64,000 nucleotides of DNA, taken from Ardenticatena maritima (GTDB lineage Bacteria > Chloroflexota > Anaerolineae > Ardenticatenales > Ardenticatenaceae). The translations under genes were made by a program, and so were the position numbers. The stretch is taken from NCBI RefSeq assembly GCF_001306175.1, contig NZ_LGKN01000003.1:620001-684000 (forward strand). Direction: 5' to 3'. Below the pieces are notes generated by a model. It was not told the origin of the DNA, did no database searches, and was given only the letters and a program-made list of their open reading frames with translations. Below, piece by piece: positions 44,206 through 51,242 of the stretch (the first letter of the stretch is position 1; every line of letters begins with the position of its first letter).

Positions 44206-45954
44206 TCACGATGCACGCCTGCTTGCCAGCCACGCTTCAAACGCTTCGCGCGAACGGGTGTTGAGGATGTGGCGTGCTTCCGCCCAGCCACGCCGCGCCT
44301 GCCAGACGCCGTACTGCATGTTTGCGAAATCGTCCGTATGGTGGGCGTCGGTGTCAATGGCAAGCAGGCAGCCGCGTGCAATCGCCTGGCGTACATAGAC
44401 GGGATCGAGGTCGAGCCGTTCAGGCGAGGCGTTGATTTCCAGCACGGTGCCTGTTTCCGCGGCGGCTTGCAAAACAGCGTCCATATCGAGGTCGGCGCCA
44501 TCTCGTTTGAGCAAAAGCCGCCCGGTTGGATGCCCGATGATGTCCACATGCGGGTTGCGAATGGCGTTGAGCAGGCGCTGGGTAATCTGCTCGCGCGGTT
44601 GGCGCAAGGCGGTGTGCAGTGAAGCAATCACAATGTCGAGTTCAGCGAGAACATCATCCGGGTAATCGAGGGTGCCATCCGCTTTGATTTCGACCTCAGC
44701 CCCTTGCAGGATGAGGATGTCATCGTATTCGACTTGCAGGGCGCGAATTTCAGCACGCTGGGCGCGCAGACGTTCAACGTCCAGCCCGTTCACCATGCCC
44801 AAACTTTGCGAGTGGTCGGTAATGGCGATGTAGGCGTAGCCGCGCCGCCGCGCCCCTTCAACCATCTCGCGCAGTGAGAGGCGTCCATCGCTGGCGGTGG
44901 TGTGCATGTGCAAGTCGCCGCGAATGTCGTTGAGCGTCACCAGTCTGGGCAGCGTCCCCATGCGGGCGGCTTCGATTTCGCCCCAATCCTCGCGCAATTC
45001 CGGGGGAACCCATGCCAGCCCTAACGTGGCGTACACCTCTTCTTCATGTGCGCAGAGAATCTCGCTGCCATCTTCGCGTTTGAAACTGTACTCGCTCAGG
45101 CTCAATCCCTGGGCAAGCGCCATCTCACGCAGGCGGACATTGTGCGCCTGGCTTCCCGTGAAGTATTGCAGCGCCGTGCCCCACCGTTCAGGCGCCACCA
45201 CGCGCAAGTCCACTTCATCGCCTGTGTGCAGGCGCACGCGCGTTTTGGTGCTTCCGCGCCACAAGACCTCAGCCACTTGCGGCAAGGCGGCAAACGCTTC
45301 CATAACAGCGTCGGGGTCGTGGGCGGCGGCGACGATGTCCATGTCGCCGATGGTGGCTTTGCGTCGCCGCAAACTCCCTGCGAGTTCAATCTCCACCAGC
45401 GCCGAGCCGACCTGTTCGCGCAGGGTCTGCACGATGTCGAGGGCGCGCGGCAGGGCAACCCCCAGCAAGGTGCGGTCGCTCCGCCGACGCAAGCGCTGAA
45501 TGCCTTCGAGGATTTTGGCTTCGGTTTTCGCGCCAAAGCCGGGCAGTGTGCGCAGTTTACCGTCGCGGGCGGCTTGTTCCAGTTCGTCTAACGTCGTGAT
45601 GCCCAGTTGCTCGTAAAGCGTGCGCACCCGTTTGGGACCCAGGTCGGGTACGTCGAGGAGTTCGATAAGTGTGCGAGGGTACTCACGTTCCAGGCGTTCG
45701 AGGTATTCCAGCCGCCCAGTGCGAAAGAGTTCGTCAATTTTGGCGGCGATGGCTTCACCGACGCCGGGAATCTCGTCCAGCCGCCCTTCTTGCCAGAGCG
45801 CATGCAAGTCGCGCCCCAGGTGTTCGATGGCGTCAGCGGCGCGCTGGTAGGCCAGAATGCGGTAGCGGTTTTCGCCCTTGATTTCAAGCAGGGCGGCAAT
45901 TTCGCGCAGAATGCGCACAACGTCGCGATTGGTTAGCGGTTTGGCGGTGCCCAT
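44206..45954 (-). CDS. polX: DNA polymerase family X with PHP domain
   Basis: 582 aa, with AAGGGAGCAGCCG before the ATG. The N-terminal 8-kDa region and helix-hairpin-helix motifs (IPGVGEAIAAKIDEL, VPDLGPKRVRTL) lead to the polymerase site with its acidic triad (GDMDIVAA ... DEVDLRVV). The C-terminal PHP domain has intact metal motifs: DLHMHTTASDG, ITDHSQS, HPTGR, DTDAHH. This predicts gap-filling polymerase plus 3'-5' exonuclease or AP-endonuclease activity in base-excision repair. Its start overlaps the anti-sigma gene by 22 bases, so expression is coupled. Confidence 0.95.
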   Translation of the reverse strand: MGTAKPLTNRDVVRILREIAALLEIKGENRYRILAYQRAADAIEHLGRDLHALWQEGRLDEIPGVGEAIAAKIDELFRTGRLEYLERLEREYPRTLIELLDVPDLGPKRVRTLYEQLGITTLDELEQAARDGKLRTLPGFGAKTEAKILEGIQRLRRRSDRTLLGVALPRALDIVQTLREQVGSALVEIELAGSLRRRKATIGDMDIVAAAHDPDAVMEAFAALPQVAEVLWRGSTKTRVRLHTGDEVDLRVVAPERWGTALQYFTGSQAHNVRLREMALAQGLSLSEYSFKREDGSEILCAHEEEVYATLGLAWVPPELREDWGEIEAARMGTLPRLVTLNDIRGDLHMHTTASDGRLSLREMVEGARRRGYAYIAITDHSQSLGMVNGLDVERLRAQRAEIRALQVEYDDILILQGAEVEIKADGTLDYPDDVLAELDIVIASLHTALRQPREQITQRLLNAIRNPHVDIIGHPTGRLLLKRDGADLDMDAVLQAAAETGTVLEINASPERLDLDPVYVRQAIARGCLLAIDTDAHHTDDFANMQYGVWQARRGWAEARHILNTRSREAFEAWLASRRAS

Positions 45955-46670
45955 CGGCTGCTCCCTTGGTAGAGGATGACCGCGAGAAGGGTAAAGAGGA
46001 GTGCGGCAAGCGTCAAGCGCGGCAGCGCGAGCAAGGGCTTCTCCACCGTTGGGGGTGGGGCTGATGGTGCGGCTTCGGGGGTAGCACTTGCAGCGGCGAT
46101 GTCGGCGCTTGCAGCGCTTCCAGCCGCTCCTGTTTGGGTTATGGTGCGTGTCAACGCCGAGGGCGCTTCTTCCGCCTGCATGCTTTCGATACCGCTTTCT
46201 TCCGACGCCTCAGCGGCGCTTTCTTCTTCTGCGGTGATGAAGGCTTCCCCAGCCGGCGGGGCGGCTTTTTCAGCCGGCGCGGATTCTGCTTGCATGTCCA
46301 TTTGCATTTCCATTGCCGTGGGCATGGGCGCTTCTGCCATCGGCGTGGCGAGCGATAGCACGTTGAGCACCAGCAACAACAGAACAATGGCAGTGCCTGC
46401 ATAACTGGCAACGCGGAAGAGCGGACGCCAGGCCGCCAGCCAGGTTTGCCAACGCGGGCGCGCCGGTTCCAGGTCGGCGCGGCGCACGTAGAAGGGGCGC
46501 GGCTCACGCACTTCGGGCAACTGCGCCATGAGGCTGACGGTCCAGCGCAGTTCGTCGAGTTCGCGCCGACACTCGGCGCAAGCGCTGAGATGGGCTTCAA
46601 TCGCTTCGCGCTCTTCTGCGCTCACTTCGTTATCAAGATAGGCTGACAATGTTTCTGGATTGATGTGCAT
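45933..46670 (-). CDS. Anti-sigma factor with zinc-finger (zf-HC2) domain
   Basis: 245 aa from the ATG at 46670; a TTG at 46682 is possible. Residues 2-60 are the anti-sigma domain with H27-x3-C31-x2-C34 (HLSACAEC). A membrane segment follows (about residues 90-112), then a low-complexity Ala/Glu/Met region, and a second membrane helix near the C terminus (ALLFTLLAVILYQG). The two-helix layout puts the long acidic middle region outside the cell. It lies directly downstream of the ECF sigma gene, the standard arrangement for a sigma/anti-sigma pair. Confidence 0.88.
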   Translation of the reverse strand: MHINPETLSAYLDNEVSAEEREAIEAHLSACAECRRELDELRWTVSLMAQLPEVREPRPFYVRRADLEPARPRWQTWLAAWRPLFRVASYAGTAIVLLLLVLNVLSLATPMAEAPMPTAMEMQMDMQAESAPAEKAAPPAGEAFITAEEESAAEASEESGIESMQAEEAPSALTRTITQTGAAGSAASADIAAASATPEAAPSAPPPTVEKPLLALPRLTLAALLFTLLAVILYQGSSRWAPPNR

Positions 46671-46690
46671 GGCTTGTTTCAACTCTGCTT

Positions 46691-47377
46691 CTAGGGCCTG
46701 TTTTGAAAACGATACGCAGGCGGTAAAAGTTCCTCATGTTCTCGTAATGCGTCGCGCATTTTGCGGCGTGCGCGGAACAAGCGGCTTTTCACCGTGCCAA
46801 TCTCAATGCCCAGAATCTCGGCGATTTCGTGATACTTGTAGCCTTGGATGTCGGCCAAGACGAGCACCGCCCGCTGGTCGGGTGGCAGGGTAAGCAAAAG
46901 GGCTTGCAACAATTCATGCAATTCTTGCTGTTCTACGGCTTCATCGGGACGCTCAGGCGCCACCTGTTCAAAAGGGCGGTCTGGTTTGTCAGGGTCAAGC
47001 AGCAGGGCGTCCAGCGAAGCCGTGGGACGGCGTTTGTGCGCACGCAGCGCATCGTAGCATTTGTTGGTGACGATTCGCAACAACCACGCCTTGAACGATG
47101 TGCCGGGCTGATAGGTGTCCAGTTTGCGGTAGGCGGCGAGAAACGCTTCTTGCGTTGCATCGGCGGCGGCGTCGGCGTCCCCCATGATGCGGTAGGCGAC
47201 GTTGTACGCCAACCGCTGGTAGCGCCCCACCAGTTGGTTGAACGCGTCAAGGTCGCCTGCTTGTGCGGCTTCCACGAGCGGGCGATCGTCAGTTGTTGGG
47301 TGGGGTTGGGTTGTCGTGCGCACTCCCAGCCGGACAAGGATGTACGCCAGCAGGAGCCAAAGCCAGAATTGGGTCAT
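46691..47377 (-). CDS. ECF RNA polymerase sigma factor with an N-terminal hydrophobic helix
   Basis: 228 aa. Region 2 is YQRLAYNVAYRIMGDADAAA ... TQEAFLAAYRKLDTY with SFKAWLLRIVTNKCYDALR. Region 4 is LPPDQRAVLVLADIQGYKYH with EIAEILGIEIGTVKSRLFRA. The unusual part is the N terminus: residues 3-18 (QFWLWLLLAYILVRLG) form an apparent membrane helix before region 2. A GTG in VRTTTQ could be a start without the helix, but it has no better ribosome site. The factor heads the run anti-sigma, polX, GT-like, ligA and is probably autoregulated. Confidence 0.9.
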   Translation of the reverse strand: MTQFWLWLLLAYILVRLGVRTTTQPHPTTDDRPLVEAAQAGDLDAFNQLVGRYQRLAYNVAYRIMGDADAAADATQEAFLAAYRKLDTYQPGTSFKAWLLRIVTNKCYDALRAHKRRPTASLDALLLDPDKPDRPFEQVAPERPDEAVEQQELHELLQALLLTLPPDQRAVLVLADIQGYKYHEIAEILGIEIGTVKSRLFRARRKMRDALREHEELLPPAYRFQNRP

Positions 47378-47496
47378 AGAACTCGTTTGACGCGCGAGGG
47401 CTTCATTTTATACTGTGCTGCACCTTCTTGAATCTGCATTGTATCGCAAAGTGGAAAGATGGCGAACCTCAAAACCAACAACATGTGTGAACATCT

Positions 47497-48480
47497 ATGC
47501 CTGGCTTGATACGGCGCGCTGCATTTGGGCTGCTTCTGTTTGCTATTGGGCTGAGCGCCGGCCTTTTTTATGGGTTAGTCCAAAACCCTGTGACGTATGA
47601 AAATGTCTATCCCGCCGACCTTGCCGCCGAGTATCGTACCGACTATCTCCGCATGACCGCTATTTCGTTCTTGCTGAATGGTGATACTGAAAAAGCGCGG
47701 CAACGGTTGATTTGGCTCCAGACGGCGCCTTCGGCGTTGCGTCTGCATGTGCAGGAAGCCGCCGCCCAAAACGACCCCGCTGCGCCGGCACTGGCGGCGC
47801 TGGCGCGCGCCTTTGGCGCACTCCCGCCTGAGATGGCGATGTATTTGCCGACTGCTACGCCGACGCCCACCCCCACACCAACAATCACGCCCACACCGAC
47901 GCCAACGTTTACGCCGACACCGACCCCCTCGCCAACGGCTACGCCCACCGCAACGCCGACGCCCATTCCTACCGCCACACCACCGCCCACACCCACAGCG
48001 CGCCCACGCCCACCAGCGGCAACGCGCGTTGCGCCCACCGCCACACCAACGCCCGCGCTTGATTTTGTGGTGCGCATGGCGCGTCTGGTTCCCAAAGAAG
48101 AAAACGGCGGTTGTCCGGGGCGCAACATTCTCTATGTGCGCGTGCGTGATGCGCAGGGGCGCCCCTTGGATGGGGTGCGCGTTGAAGTGCGCTGGAAAGA
48201 TGGGCGTTTTGTGCTGGTGAGCGGCTCGAAAGAGGGGCAACCGGGGAACGCCGAGTTTGTCATGTCCGGTGGGTATTGGGTGCGTGTGGTTGGCGACGTG
48301 CAGGGACGCACCTACCGCAGTGAGGAAACGCGCGAACTCAACAACATGACGCCCTCGTATGCCGATTTGATTGCCGCAGGCTACTGCACGAGCGAAGACG
48401 ATTGCCGCTTGCAAGAAGAACGCGGGCAGTTGTGCCCGGGCTTCTACTCATGGGAAGTGGAGTTTCAACGCACATGGTAA
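47497..48480 (+). CDS. Exported/anchored protein with Thr-Pro-rich linker and Ig-like C-terminal domain
   Basis: 327 aa. It has an N-terminal membrane helix ([20 protein letters not shown]), a helical region (residues about 45-110), a Thr-Pro linker of about 60 residues (about 118-180), and a C-terminal domain of about 120 residues with paired cysteines ([19 protein letters not shown] ... GYCTSEDDC ... QLCPGF). The C-terminal domain resembles a carboxypeptidase-regulatory or Ig-like beta sandwich ([13 protein letters not shown]). No enzyme motif. The next gene is a paralogue. The Thr-Pro linker is seen often in Chloroflexota cell-surface proteins. Confidence 0.75.
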
Positions 48481-49304
48481 GGTTGCTCAAAACGCTTTGG
48501 TGGCTCTGGTTGCTTCTTGCCGGGTTCGGCGTAGGGGTTCTGCTGGCGTGGGGTCCTCTTGCCCCCCAACCCGGCACCCAATCGCCCGCTGAATTGCGCC
48601 CTGATGTGCGGCGCGATATGCTTTTTCTGATTGCGGACACGTATGCCTATGAGCATGATTTGCGCAAAGCCCGCGAACGCTTTGCCGCTCTCAACCTGAC
48701 CAACCCGACGCCTATCTTCACGCTCCTGGTGGATGAAGCCCTGCGCGAAGGGCGCGAAGAAGAAGCCCGCCGTCTGGCGCAATTGGCGGTGGCGCTGGAA
48801 TACGATACGCCCGTTTTGCGTGCGTTAGCGCATACCGCAACCCCGACACCAACGCCGACGCCATCCCCCACACCATCGCCTGATGTGGGCGCGACGCCCC
48901 AGCCGTCTCCCTCGGCGGAAGCCGTACAAGGACGCTACGAGTGGGTGGTTGTCGAACGGCGGCCGCTAACATGCGCCGAGCAACCCGGTGATGCGCCTTT
49001 GCTTGTGGTGTATGTGGAAGACGCCGACGGGAAGCCGCTCAGCGGCGTTCCCTTGCTGGCGCAAAGCGAGACCGATACGCAACGCTTCTTCACCGGCTTG
49101 AAACCCGACAACCCCGGCTATGCCGACCTGGAAGTTGCCGGCAGCCGCTACACTGTGCGCGTTGACCAGGGGCAAAGTGAAGTGGCGCTGGACTTGACAA
49201 TGCCATCAGAGAACGCAAAATGCAGTCAGCTCTCGACAGAAGAAGCGGCAACCGCCATACGCGGGTGGGTTGTGCGTTTTCGTCGTGTGTCGCCTGCACC
49301 CTAA
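48474..49304 (+). CDS. Paralogue of the preceding Thr-Pro-linker protein
   Basis: 276 aa, overlapping the previous stop. It has the same order as its neighbour: N-terminal membrane helix ([19 protein letters not shown]), helical region ([31 protein letters not shown]), a short TP linker ([19 protein letters not shown]), and a beta domain with paired Cys (LTCAEQ, NAKCSQL) and [14 protein letters not shown]. The pair arose by duplication. The helical part resembles a tetratricopeptide-like hairpin but is too short to name. Confidence 0.72.
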
Positions 49305-49334: not shown

Positions 49335-51242
49335 GTGCTGAAGCGTTTTTTGAAAAATGCGCCTTTGTTTTCCCGCTTGACTGACGAAGAGCGTCAAGTC
49401 ATCGCCGCGCATATGCACCTGCAACGTTTTCACCAGGGCGATATCCTGTTTGAACAGGGCGCACCGGCGACGGCGATGTACGTCGTGCGGTCTGGATTGC
49501 TGCGACTTATCAACGTTGAGGATGGGCGTATCATCGCCAACCTTGGTCCCGCCAATCTGGCCGGCGAAACTGACATGATTTTGGGGTTGCCGTATGAAGT
49601 GCGCGGCGAAGCCGCCACCGATTTGGATGTCTGGGTGCTGTCGCGCAACGATTGGCTGGATATCATCGAAATGCACCCCCTGATTGCCATCAAGGTCGGG
49701 AGTTTCCTGGGACAGCCGATTGGCGATACGAAGACCTACCTGACGACGCTTCTGCAACAGTCGTCGCTTTTTGAAGACGTACCCGTGCATGTGCTGGAAG
49801 CCCTGGCTGAGCAGATGCAACTTGAAACCAAGCAACATGGCGAACTGGTGTTCCAGGCCAACGCCCCCGCCCGCTACGCCTACACCATTGGCGAAGGGCG
49901 CGTCGCCCTTGTTTCCATCAACCCGAATGACACCGACCCTTTCCGCTATGCGGCACAGGGGGATTGGATTGGCGTCGAAGCGGTCTTGCGTGGCGGCACC
50001 TACGGCGCGGTTGCGCGTGCTGACGGCGATGTGCAGCTCTGGAAAATTGAGCGTGAAGCGCTTCTCGACCTTGTAGAGCGGTATCCGCTCTTGCGGGATA
50101 TCTTCCGACGCCAGCAACCCGAAGCTGAAACGATTGACCGCATTGCCGCCCGTGATGCGCTGCAACAAACCAATTTGTTTGCAGATTTGCCGCTGGACGT
50201 GCTGGATGACGTCATTCGTTCACTCATTGTCGAACACGTGGAACCCAACGAAGTCCTGGCGTCTCCGCAAGAGCCGCTCAACGCCCTCTGCATTTTGCAC
50301 CGTGGCCGGTTGCAAGTGATTGAAGATGGGAAGGTGCTCGCCGAGTATGAGGAAGGTTCAACATTTGGCGAAAACATTTTGCTGACGGGGCGTCCTTTGA
50401 CGCAAACCATACGTGCTGTTGAAGCGAGCACGCTCTGGTGTTTGCCCAAAGAGACGTTCGAGCGCCTGATGGCGCGGCATAATGAACTGGGAAGCCGTGT
50501 CAGCTTTTTGTTGCGTAGTCTGCTCAGTGAGGAGCAAGCGGCGTCCCCTGAACAACAATCGTTCCTGCGCATGTTTCCTCTCTTTTTCGCGCTGGATGAT
50601 GAGGCGCTCGCAGCGATCGAAGCCACATTGCGCCGTGAAGTCTATCCGGCGGGCACACTCATTTATCATCAAGGTGAATGGCCTGAAGCCTTCTACCTGG
50701 TGTACGAAGGCGAAGTGCGCGTGACCAATTCGCGCGGCAAAGTGACGATTGTGCGCCCTGGCGGTTTTCTGGGCGAAACAGCGCTCCTGACGGGCAGCGA
50801 ACACGCTGAAACGGCGCAAACCATCACCGATGTGATTGTGTATGCCATGCCGCGCCCTGATTTCGAGGCAATGTTGGAGCGCCATCCACACATTGCCTTG
50901 TCGTTGAGCCGCACGTTGAGCGCACGCCTGCAACGGTTGCAGAAGAACGAGACCGCGCCATTACTGCAAGACAGTGAACGTGCAAGCCCTGGCGCGCGCG
51001 CCGCGAACGCTTTGGTCTTTGACCGCGAGTCTGCTGGGCTCTCAACGCATCTCTGGGATCAAGCGATCGAATGGTTTGCGTATCTTTCAACAGGCGCCAA
51101 AATTCGTTTGGTGATTGTGGCGCTGCTCTTCTTCTGGCTTGTGGGGGTTGTTGCTCCGTGGCTTGTGGTGCAGCGGCTGGAAGGGGAGAGCCTCAACATG
51201 CGTGAGACGCCTGCGGTGGTGTTTGTTGAAACCATCATCTAA
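49335..51242 (+). CDS. Four tandem cyclic-nucleotide-binding domains with C-terminal membrane anchor
   Basis: 635 aa. Four CNBD modules are readable at about residues 12-125, 145-260, 285-395 and 410-525. Each begins with an LFxxL-type helix (APLFSRLTDEERQV, SSLFEDVPVHVLEAL, TNLFADLPLDVLDDV, FPLFFALDDEALAAI). GxxxGE-type phosphate cassettes are present (LAGETDMILG, FGENILLTG, FLGETALLTGSEHA) but vary, and the second copy is degenerate (WIGVEAVLR). A single membrane helix lies near the C terminus (IRLVIVALLFFWLVGVVAPW). No kinase, DNA-binding or channel domain is attached. It may be a membrane-tethered sensor of cyclic nucleotides. Confidence 0.85.
   Translation: MLKRFLKNAPLFSRLTDEERQVIAAHMHLQRFHQGDILFEQGAPATAMYVVRSGLLRLINVEDGRIIANLGPANLAGETDMILGLPYEVRGEAATDLDVWVLSRNDWLDIIEMHPLIAIKVGSFLGQPIGDTKTYLTTLLQQSSLFEDVPVHVLEALAEQMQLETKQHGELVFQANAPARYAYTIGEGRVALVSINPNDTDPFRYAAQGDWIGVEAVLRGGTYGAVARADGDVQLWKIEREALLDLVERYPLLRDIFRRQQPEAETIDRIAARDALQQTNLFADLPLDVLDDVIRSLIVEHVEPNEVLASPQEPLNALCILHRGRLQVIEDGKVLAEYEEGSTFGENILLTGRPLTQTIRAVEASTLWCLPKETFERLMARHNELGSRVSFLLRSLLSEEQAASPEQQSFLRMFPLFFALDDEALAAIEATLRREVYPAGTLIYHQGEWPEAFYLVYEGEVRVTNSRGKVTIVRPGGFLGETALLTGSEHAETAQTITDVIVYAMPRPDFEAMLERHPHIALSLSRTLSARLQRLQKNETAPLLQDSERASPGARAANALVFDRESAGLSTHLWDQAIEWFAYLSTGAKIRLVIVALLFFWLVGVVAPWLVVQRLEGESLNMRETPAVVFVETII

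Follow-up and report, generated by a model that had tools for sequence, protein, structure and literature searches.

Judged by gene order among Chloroflexota, the gene coding for a membrane protein with four tandem cyclic-nucleotide-binding domains (CNBDs), located at positions 49335–51242 of the window (the whole 64,000-nucleotide stretch of Ardenticatena maritima DNA that was analysed), is part of a conserved cluster together with genes for an ECF sigma factor, an anti-sigma factor and one or more envelope proteins. We hypothesize, with a probability of roughly 0.55, that a trans-envelope complex exists in Chloroflexota, encoded with the ECF sigma/anti-sigma pair, and that this protein is its nucleotide-reading half on the cytoplasmic side. 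In such a complex, the CNBD array would be cytoplasmic, with the outer domains positioned at the cell wall; binding of a nucleotide would alter the array, and the membrane helices would relay the change either to the envelope partners or to the anti-sigma factor in the membrane. The ligands, the output and the control by the ECF sigma factor are all parts of this scheme that we infer.

The CNBD array and its gene

The CNBD-array gene is a single open reading frame on the plus strand with a GTG start and AAAAGGAG just ahead of it. Its 635-aa product is composed of four CNBDs, one C-terminal transmembrane (TM) helix and a poorly conserved tail of 18–19 aa. Four CNBDs in a row, a single C-terminal membrane helix and the lack of an output domain had been put forward in the original prediction, and all three features were recovered. 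Pfam recognizes four cNMP_binding (PF00027) stretches (E 1.3e-73; 243 bits against a cut-off of 27.5) and, at curated cut-offs, no domain besides these. NCBIfam returns only matches far under its cut-offs, and an output domain that could have overturned the prediction was found by neither profile search. The only hydrophobic segment spans approximately aa 593–612 (Kyte–Doolittle value 2.65, the best value before aa 560 being 1.28). It falls within aa 587–617 (51093–51185, plus strand), a stretch which is predicted as one helix by a structure model of low overall confidence (mean pLDDT 51.5, pTM 0.31; module 3 is the best-modelled portion) and which lies inside the conserved family region GAKxRL...LL..WLxG...P.

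A copy of the protein that is 79% identical and has the same neighbours is encoded in a MAG named Ardenticatena sp. (locus L038). Comparison of the two genes gives pN/pS of 0.132/0.706 over the whole gene and of 0.085/0.717 in module 2, and purifying selection is seen on all four modules, the degenerate module 2 included. The modules are 77–86% identical, as compared with 33% for the tail that follows the helix. On the strength of the L038 copy, the shared neighbours and the pN/pS values, 49335–51242 is a real gene. CNBDs are also found in proteins of other kinds. In the genome of the window, these include L002 and L007, of which one has a patatin-like part and the other combines TPR-like repeats with a cyclase-like end (patatin and TPR labels assigned by eye). 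In other Chloroflexota, the membrane proteins encoded at L015, L016, L019, L020 and L021 carry an HExxH region resembling that of M50 proteases, together with two CNBDs at the C terminus, again as read by eye.

The ECF sigma factor pair and the envelope genes

The gene for the ECF sigma factor (46691–47377, minus strand) is divergent from the env1, env2 and CNBD-array genes. Its product contains sigma-70 regions 2 and 4, with PF04542, PF08281 and TIGR02937 above their cut-offs. At a distance of 8 bp, a second gene (45933–46682, minus strand) codes for a class I anti-sigma factor with a zf-HC2 domain (HxxxCxxC; PF13490, 42.7 bits against 22.2) and two hydrophobic segments. ECF systems with class I (ASDI) anti-sigma factors likewise have sigma-70 regions 2 and 4, together with an adjacent HxxxCxxC anti-sigma factor with hydrophobic segments, whereas the excerpted text of the same source makes no mention of recurrent divergent CNBD-array and envelope genes such as those of the window cluster [PMC7406223]. 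The genome contains only 16 sigma-70 region-2 matches in 3.56 Mb, and a sigma gene should therefore rarely be adjacent by chance. The sigma factors of the window and of L038 share a hydrophobic N-terminal extension (MTQFWLWLLLAYILVRLG). A role of this extension as a membrane anchor was considered and rejected, as its hydropathy is below the threshold in both proteins and above it in one of 67 sigma genes.

The two envelope genes, env1 (47497–48480) and env2 (48474–49304, with the chosen start), are located on the plus strand, the end of the first overlapping the chosen start of the second by 7 nt. Both products consist of an N-terminal hydrophobic segment, a helical part, a T/P-rich linker and an ENV domain (48064–48477 in env1), and in the structure model of env1 helices precede strands, albeit with low confidence (mean pLDDT 55, pTM 0.35). 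For the ENV domain itself, Pfam yields only hints below the cut-offs, with Big_1 in four of eight members. A profile built from eight outer (ENV) domains (A1) also has matches at other loci. A second recurrent locus (L103, L104, L105 and L106; own genome C5:652000-666000) codes for two proteins, the first of 962–1048 aa with PRPxxDxGxG[VI]HW close to its start and the second of 244–316 aa, and ENV-profile matches fall in this pair. Pairs of small proteins (approximately 118–139 and 267–320 aa) with an N-terminal hydrophobic segment are encoded at L111, L112, L114, L116 and L117, where the larger protein matches the ENV profile.

Conservation of the gene cluster

With the whole window protein as query, 356 of 400 phylum genomes give a match because any CNBD matches, and a profile of eight 40-residue helix regions (A2) was therefore used. 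In the phylum draw, profile A2 detects eight strong loci, spread over 7 of 400 genomes (the weakest at 1.7e-16, the next match at 0.002). The family is present in 6 of 7 genomes of the order and, in the class draw at E <= 1e-4, in 110 of 396; the phylum and class draws differ greatly, and these fractions from a survey within Chloroflexota are not prevalence estimates. The loci compared were 107 class-list loci with flanks, the window and seven further loci (L038–L042, L044 and L045). At the thresholds used, six of the 107 class-list loci have no open reading frame with both CNBD and helix. The sample contains 110 proteins in which CNBDs are followed by the family helix, namely 87 with four modules, 15 with two and 8 with one or three.

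Gene order was counted for 69 of these proteins, after exclusion of 6 of the 110 that are open at the 5' end and of 35 of the other 104 with less than 4.5 kb upstream. Upstream of the array gene, a divergent ECF sigma gene is present in 54/69 (window included; at least 4.5 kb upstream in each case) and a same-strand env-domain gene in 45/69, or 44 without the tandem pair of L042; both occur together in 40/69 and at least one of them in 59/69. The downstream side served as a control and has a sigma gene in 0/71 and an env-domain gene in 1/71. Profile seeds among the 69 loci are the window, L038 and L041 for the sigma gene and the window, L039, L041 and L042 for the env gene. The tandem CNBD genes of L042 account for one of the 45 upstream env cases as well as for the single downstream case. 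This locus (L042:4873-8459), from a genome outside the class, carries two tandem two-module CNBD-TM-ENV genes and has no ECF sigma gene within 4.5 kb upstream. Many relatives encode, upstream of the array gene, one to three further TM-anchored proteins with an ENV-type outer domain. The original prediction had pointed to a nearby ECF sigma/anti-sigma pair and two envelope proteins and had proposed a survey of Chloroflexota for conserved neighbours; the genes are present, and the survey counts identify them as recurrent neighbours.

The divergent sigma gene usually has an anti-sigma-like gene behind it. At 67 sigma-positive loci, the gene next to the sigma gene encodes HxxxCxxC in only 26 cases, a membrane segment alone in 37 and neither in 4. 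Five loci were also read gene by gene. By eye, the sigma gene is followed by an anti-sigma-like gene in L203 and L225, no anti-sigma gene follows it in L215, and no sigma gene is located nearby in L040 and L209, both of which fall outside the clade of 14 proteins described below. A divergent ECF sigma gene within 4.5 kb is missing in 15 of the 69 cases (L039, L040, both L042 genes, L169, L174, L190, L200, L208, L209, L210, L212, L217, L229 and L247). The window itself contains the family-helix array, the upstream env gene and the divergent ECF sigma gene. As sigma and env genes recur upstream, these neighbours are likely partners of the CNBD array.

Fused and separate outer domains

In several relatives, the helix is followed by a Thr/Pro-rich stalk and an outer domain alignable with those at the C termini of env1 and env2. 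Such a fused outer domain is present in 63/87 four-module proteins, whereas in 17/87 the chain stops no more than 25 residues after the helix, and 7/87 have other tails. One of the 17 short-tailed proteins, L221, runs off its contig, leaving 16: the window protein, L038 and 14 proteins in family f118. The window protein has no fused ENV domain, and the outer domain is found instead on the separate env1 and env2 proteins. A stand-alone array had originally been regarded as an uncommon layout. This view could not be upheld, given a family that occurs in 110 of the class genomes and whose four-module members mostly carry an extra post-helix domain homologous to env1 and env2. Pfam scans of selected relatives identified LysM in L045, as well as SH3 in L247 and in the L041 env protein, and it is on these domains that the proposed position of the outer parts at the cell wall is based. 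In nine four-module proteins (L195, L197, L217, L218, L220, L227, L232, L233 and L240), the last CNBD is separated from the helix by approximately 230–320 residues, as compared with about 50 in the window protein; this extended spacer has no Pfam match in L195 and L232, the two that were scanned.

A tree of the 87 arrays (quick maximum-likelihood, with SH-aLRT support, no bootstrap and a midpoint root) mostly tracks the genome families. The window protein and L038 group with the fused-domain proteins L159 and L164 with full SH-aLRT support, and the 14 short-tailed f118 proteins form a separate clade nested among fused relatives. From this placement and the 63 fused proteins, an array of four CNBDs and nothing else looks like the product of secondary loss, which likely occurred at least twice, in the genus Ardenticatena and once elsewhere. 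In the clade of 14, no upstream env-domain gene was detected (13 with more than 6 kb upstream and L251 with just 0.4 kb), and an env partner at this locus is therefore not obligatory. Taken together, the gene order, the fused or separate outer domains and the conserved helix suggest that these components likely form one system.

It is possible, if somewhat unlikely, that the CNBD protein is merely a member of the regulon, in which case the ECF pair would sense the state of the envelope and the array would have no feedback on the sigma factor. ECF sigma factors often have divergent target genes, and in the env-less clade a divergent sigma gene is still adjacent in 13/14. However, env1 is preceded by a sigma-70-like promoter of the housekeeping type (TTGACG-16-TATACT, 47387–47414, plus strand; 10/12 matches), a finding that counts against a simple scheme in which the ECF sigma factor is in control, and the search for such promoters returned two sites in the region as compared with 0.1 expected in shuffles. 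In addition, no ECF-type promoter motif was recognized in an alignment of 13 intergenic regions, in which conserved patches are present.

Cassettes of the four modules

The canonical cNMP cassette pair consists of Glu at +1 and Arg at +10, as in CRP, where the first Gly of the cassette is counted as 0. The cassette Arg has been described for PKA in the excerpted text of PMC10959531. This pair is present in 0/4 modules of the window protein, the residues at +1/+10 being E/Y, V/Y, E/L and E/H. Module 1 (aa 5–126; 49347–49712, plus strand, as are the other three) has the cassette GETDMILGLPY, with Glu +1, Asp +3 and Tyr +10, and module 2 (aa 139–258; 49749–50108) has GVEAVLRGGTY, with neither Glu +1 nor Arg +10. 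In module 3 (aa 276–396; 50160–50522; GENILLTGRPL) and module 4 (aa 408–528; 50556–50918; GETALLTGSEH), Glu is retained and Arg is replaced by Leu and His, respectively. The four cassettes are thus distinct, as had been noted originally. The accompanying remark that copy 2 looks degenerate is correct in that module 2 lacks both residues, and incomplete in that all four window cassettes depart from the Glu/Arg pair. Judged by these residues, the window protein has no canonical cNMP site and should not bind cyclic nucleotides in the canonical manner.

Cassettes were counted in the same way across the family; the 8 proteins of the 110 in which one or three modules were detected are excluded here and from the tree. 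In the four-module proteins, Glu and Arg occur together in 25/87, 0/87, 61/87 and 28/87 of modules 1, 2, 3 and 4, respectively, and 18/87 proteins, the window protein among them, have no module with Glu plus Arg within one position. Both residues are found in 36/41 control modules from other CNBD proteins, which were chosen as best matches to the window protein and are therefore a non-random sample. An Asp or Glu at +3 is present in module 1 of 76/87 four-module proteins, as opposed to 3, 2 and 6 of 87 for modules 2, 3 and 4 (11/261 together) and 0/41 controls. Arg +10 is missing from 55 of these 76 module-1 cassettes and present in 21, and 55/87 module-1 cassettes combine acidic +3 with E/D at +1 and no Arg. 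In two-module proteins, module 1 has an acidic +3 residue in only 7/15. From these counts, the modules appear to be specialized by position.

A similar departure from the canonical cassette is known in trypanosomatid PKAR, which has ribose-binding cassettes and for which the excerpted text of PMC10959531 describes the replacement of Ala +3 by Glu and of Arg +10 by polar residues, gives inosine, guanosine and adenosine as ligands, and states that Glu +3 would clash with the cyclic phosphate. Window module 1 likewise combines Glu +1, an acidic +3 residue and no Arg +10 (E, D and Y). The +3 residue is Glu in PKAR and Asp in the window protein, however, and the likeness concerns module 1 only. When the whole module 1 sequence is used, the best match is Plasmodium PKG (1.7e-15), with T. 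cruzi PKAR (6ftf) at 6e-8; overall similarity therefore does not single out the nucleoside binders. The module-1 cassette should disfavour cAMP and could accept nucleosides.

Possible ligands and roles of the array

Within the proposed trans-envelope complex, module 3 should bind a cNMP in most relatives and would there be the cyclic-nucleotide site of the array, whereas module 1 would be a site for a nucleoside-like ligand without a cyclic phosphate and module 2 would be a structural unit. The genome contains class III cyclase matches, nine in total across eight reading frames, and cyclic nucleotides may therefore be made. Having no canonical cNMP site, the window member itself would be expected to use module 1 to sense a different ligand, or else to serve as an adaptor that binds none. 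The original prediction had suggested that the copies may bind different ligands or only scaffold, a choice that can now be framed separately for each module.

In an alternative account, which we consider unlikely, the array would have lost ligand binding in Ardenticatena, and perhaps in others, and would serve on the cytoplasmic side as an adaptor bringing envelope proteins or different partners together at the membrane. Such a scaffold would fit with the absence of the Glu and Arg pair from every window module and from all modules of 18/87 proteins, and with folds that are still under purifying selection. On the other hand, module 3 keeps both residues in 61/87, and window module 1 keeps Glu +1 and Asp +3. 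A more elaborate version of the nucleotide-reading complex, in which the array integrates a nucleoside-like ligand at module 1 with a cyclic nucleotide at module 3 and relays both to the ECF pair or to the wall-facing partners, is speculative and in our view improbable.

Comparison with known CNBD proteins

In a sequence search against the PDB, Toxoplasma PCR12 is the best match, followed by apicomplexan PKG and PKA regulatory subunits, and Foldseek ranks Plasmodium PKG first, with TM-scores of approximately 0.2 to 0.4 obtained from the weak model (pTM 0.31). Apicomplexan PKG, Toxoplasma PCR12 and the PKA regulatory subunits have tandem CNBDs, as has the window protein. Unlike this group, the window protein is bacterial, has no kinase part, has a membrane helix and is encoded beside ECF sigma and envelope genes. 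Family 2B encapsulin shell proteins also contain a cNMP-binding domain, as described in the excerpted text of PMC8346489, and give the top NCBIfam match through this CNBD part; the window protein is instead a membrane-anchored array. That it is a family 2B encapsulin, a CRP/FNR regulator or a fragment of a CNG channel is extremely improbable. The nearest named CNBD models do include encapsulin 2B and CRP, and the PDB matches include a CNG channel, but the profile scores are far under the cut-offs (encapsulin, 101 of 400 bits; CRP model, 46 of 266 bits), no HK97-type capsid domain, C-terminal helix-turn-helix match or channel domain of the CNG/HCN/MloK1 type was found, and the one hydrophobic segment is C-terminal.

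Implications

It is difficult to assign a role to CNBDs when no effector is attached to them, and the recurrent gene cluster offers likely partners for such an array. In open-access PMC (subscription papers and preprints lie outside this scope), no title among the matches listed describes a CNBD-array/ECF cluster. To our knowledge, no nucleoside-responsive CNBD is known outside trypanosomatids. If the array does read two signals, module 1 would be the first example of such a domain, and the cluster would be the first CNBD–ECF system in open-access PMC, among the matches listed. Should the reading of the protein as the cytoplasmic half of a trans-envelope complex hold, the sensing of second messengers or purines would be tied, in a phylum that has received little study, to ECF sigma signalling as well as to wall-facing proteins.
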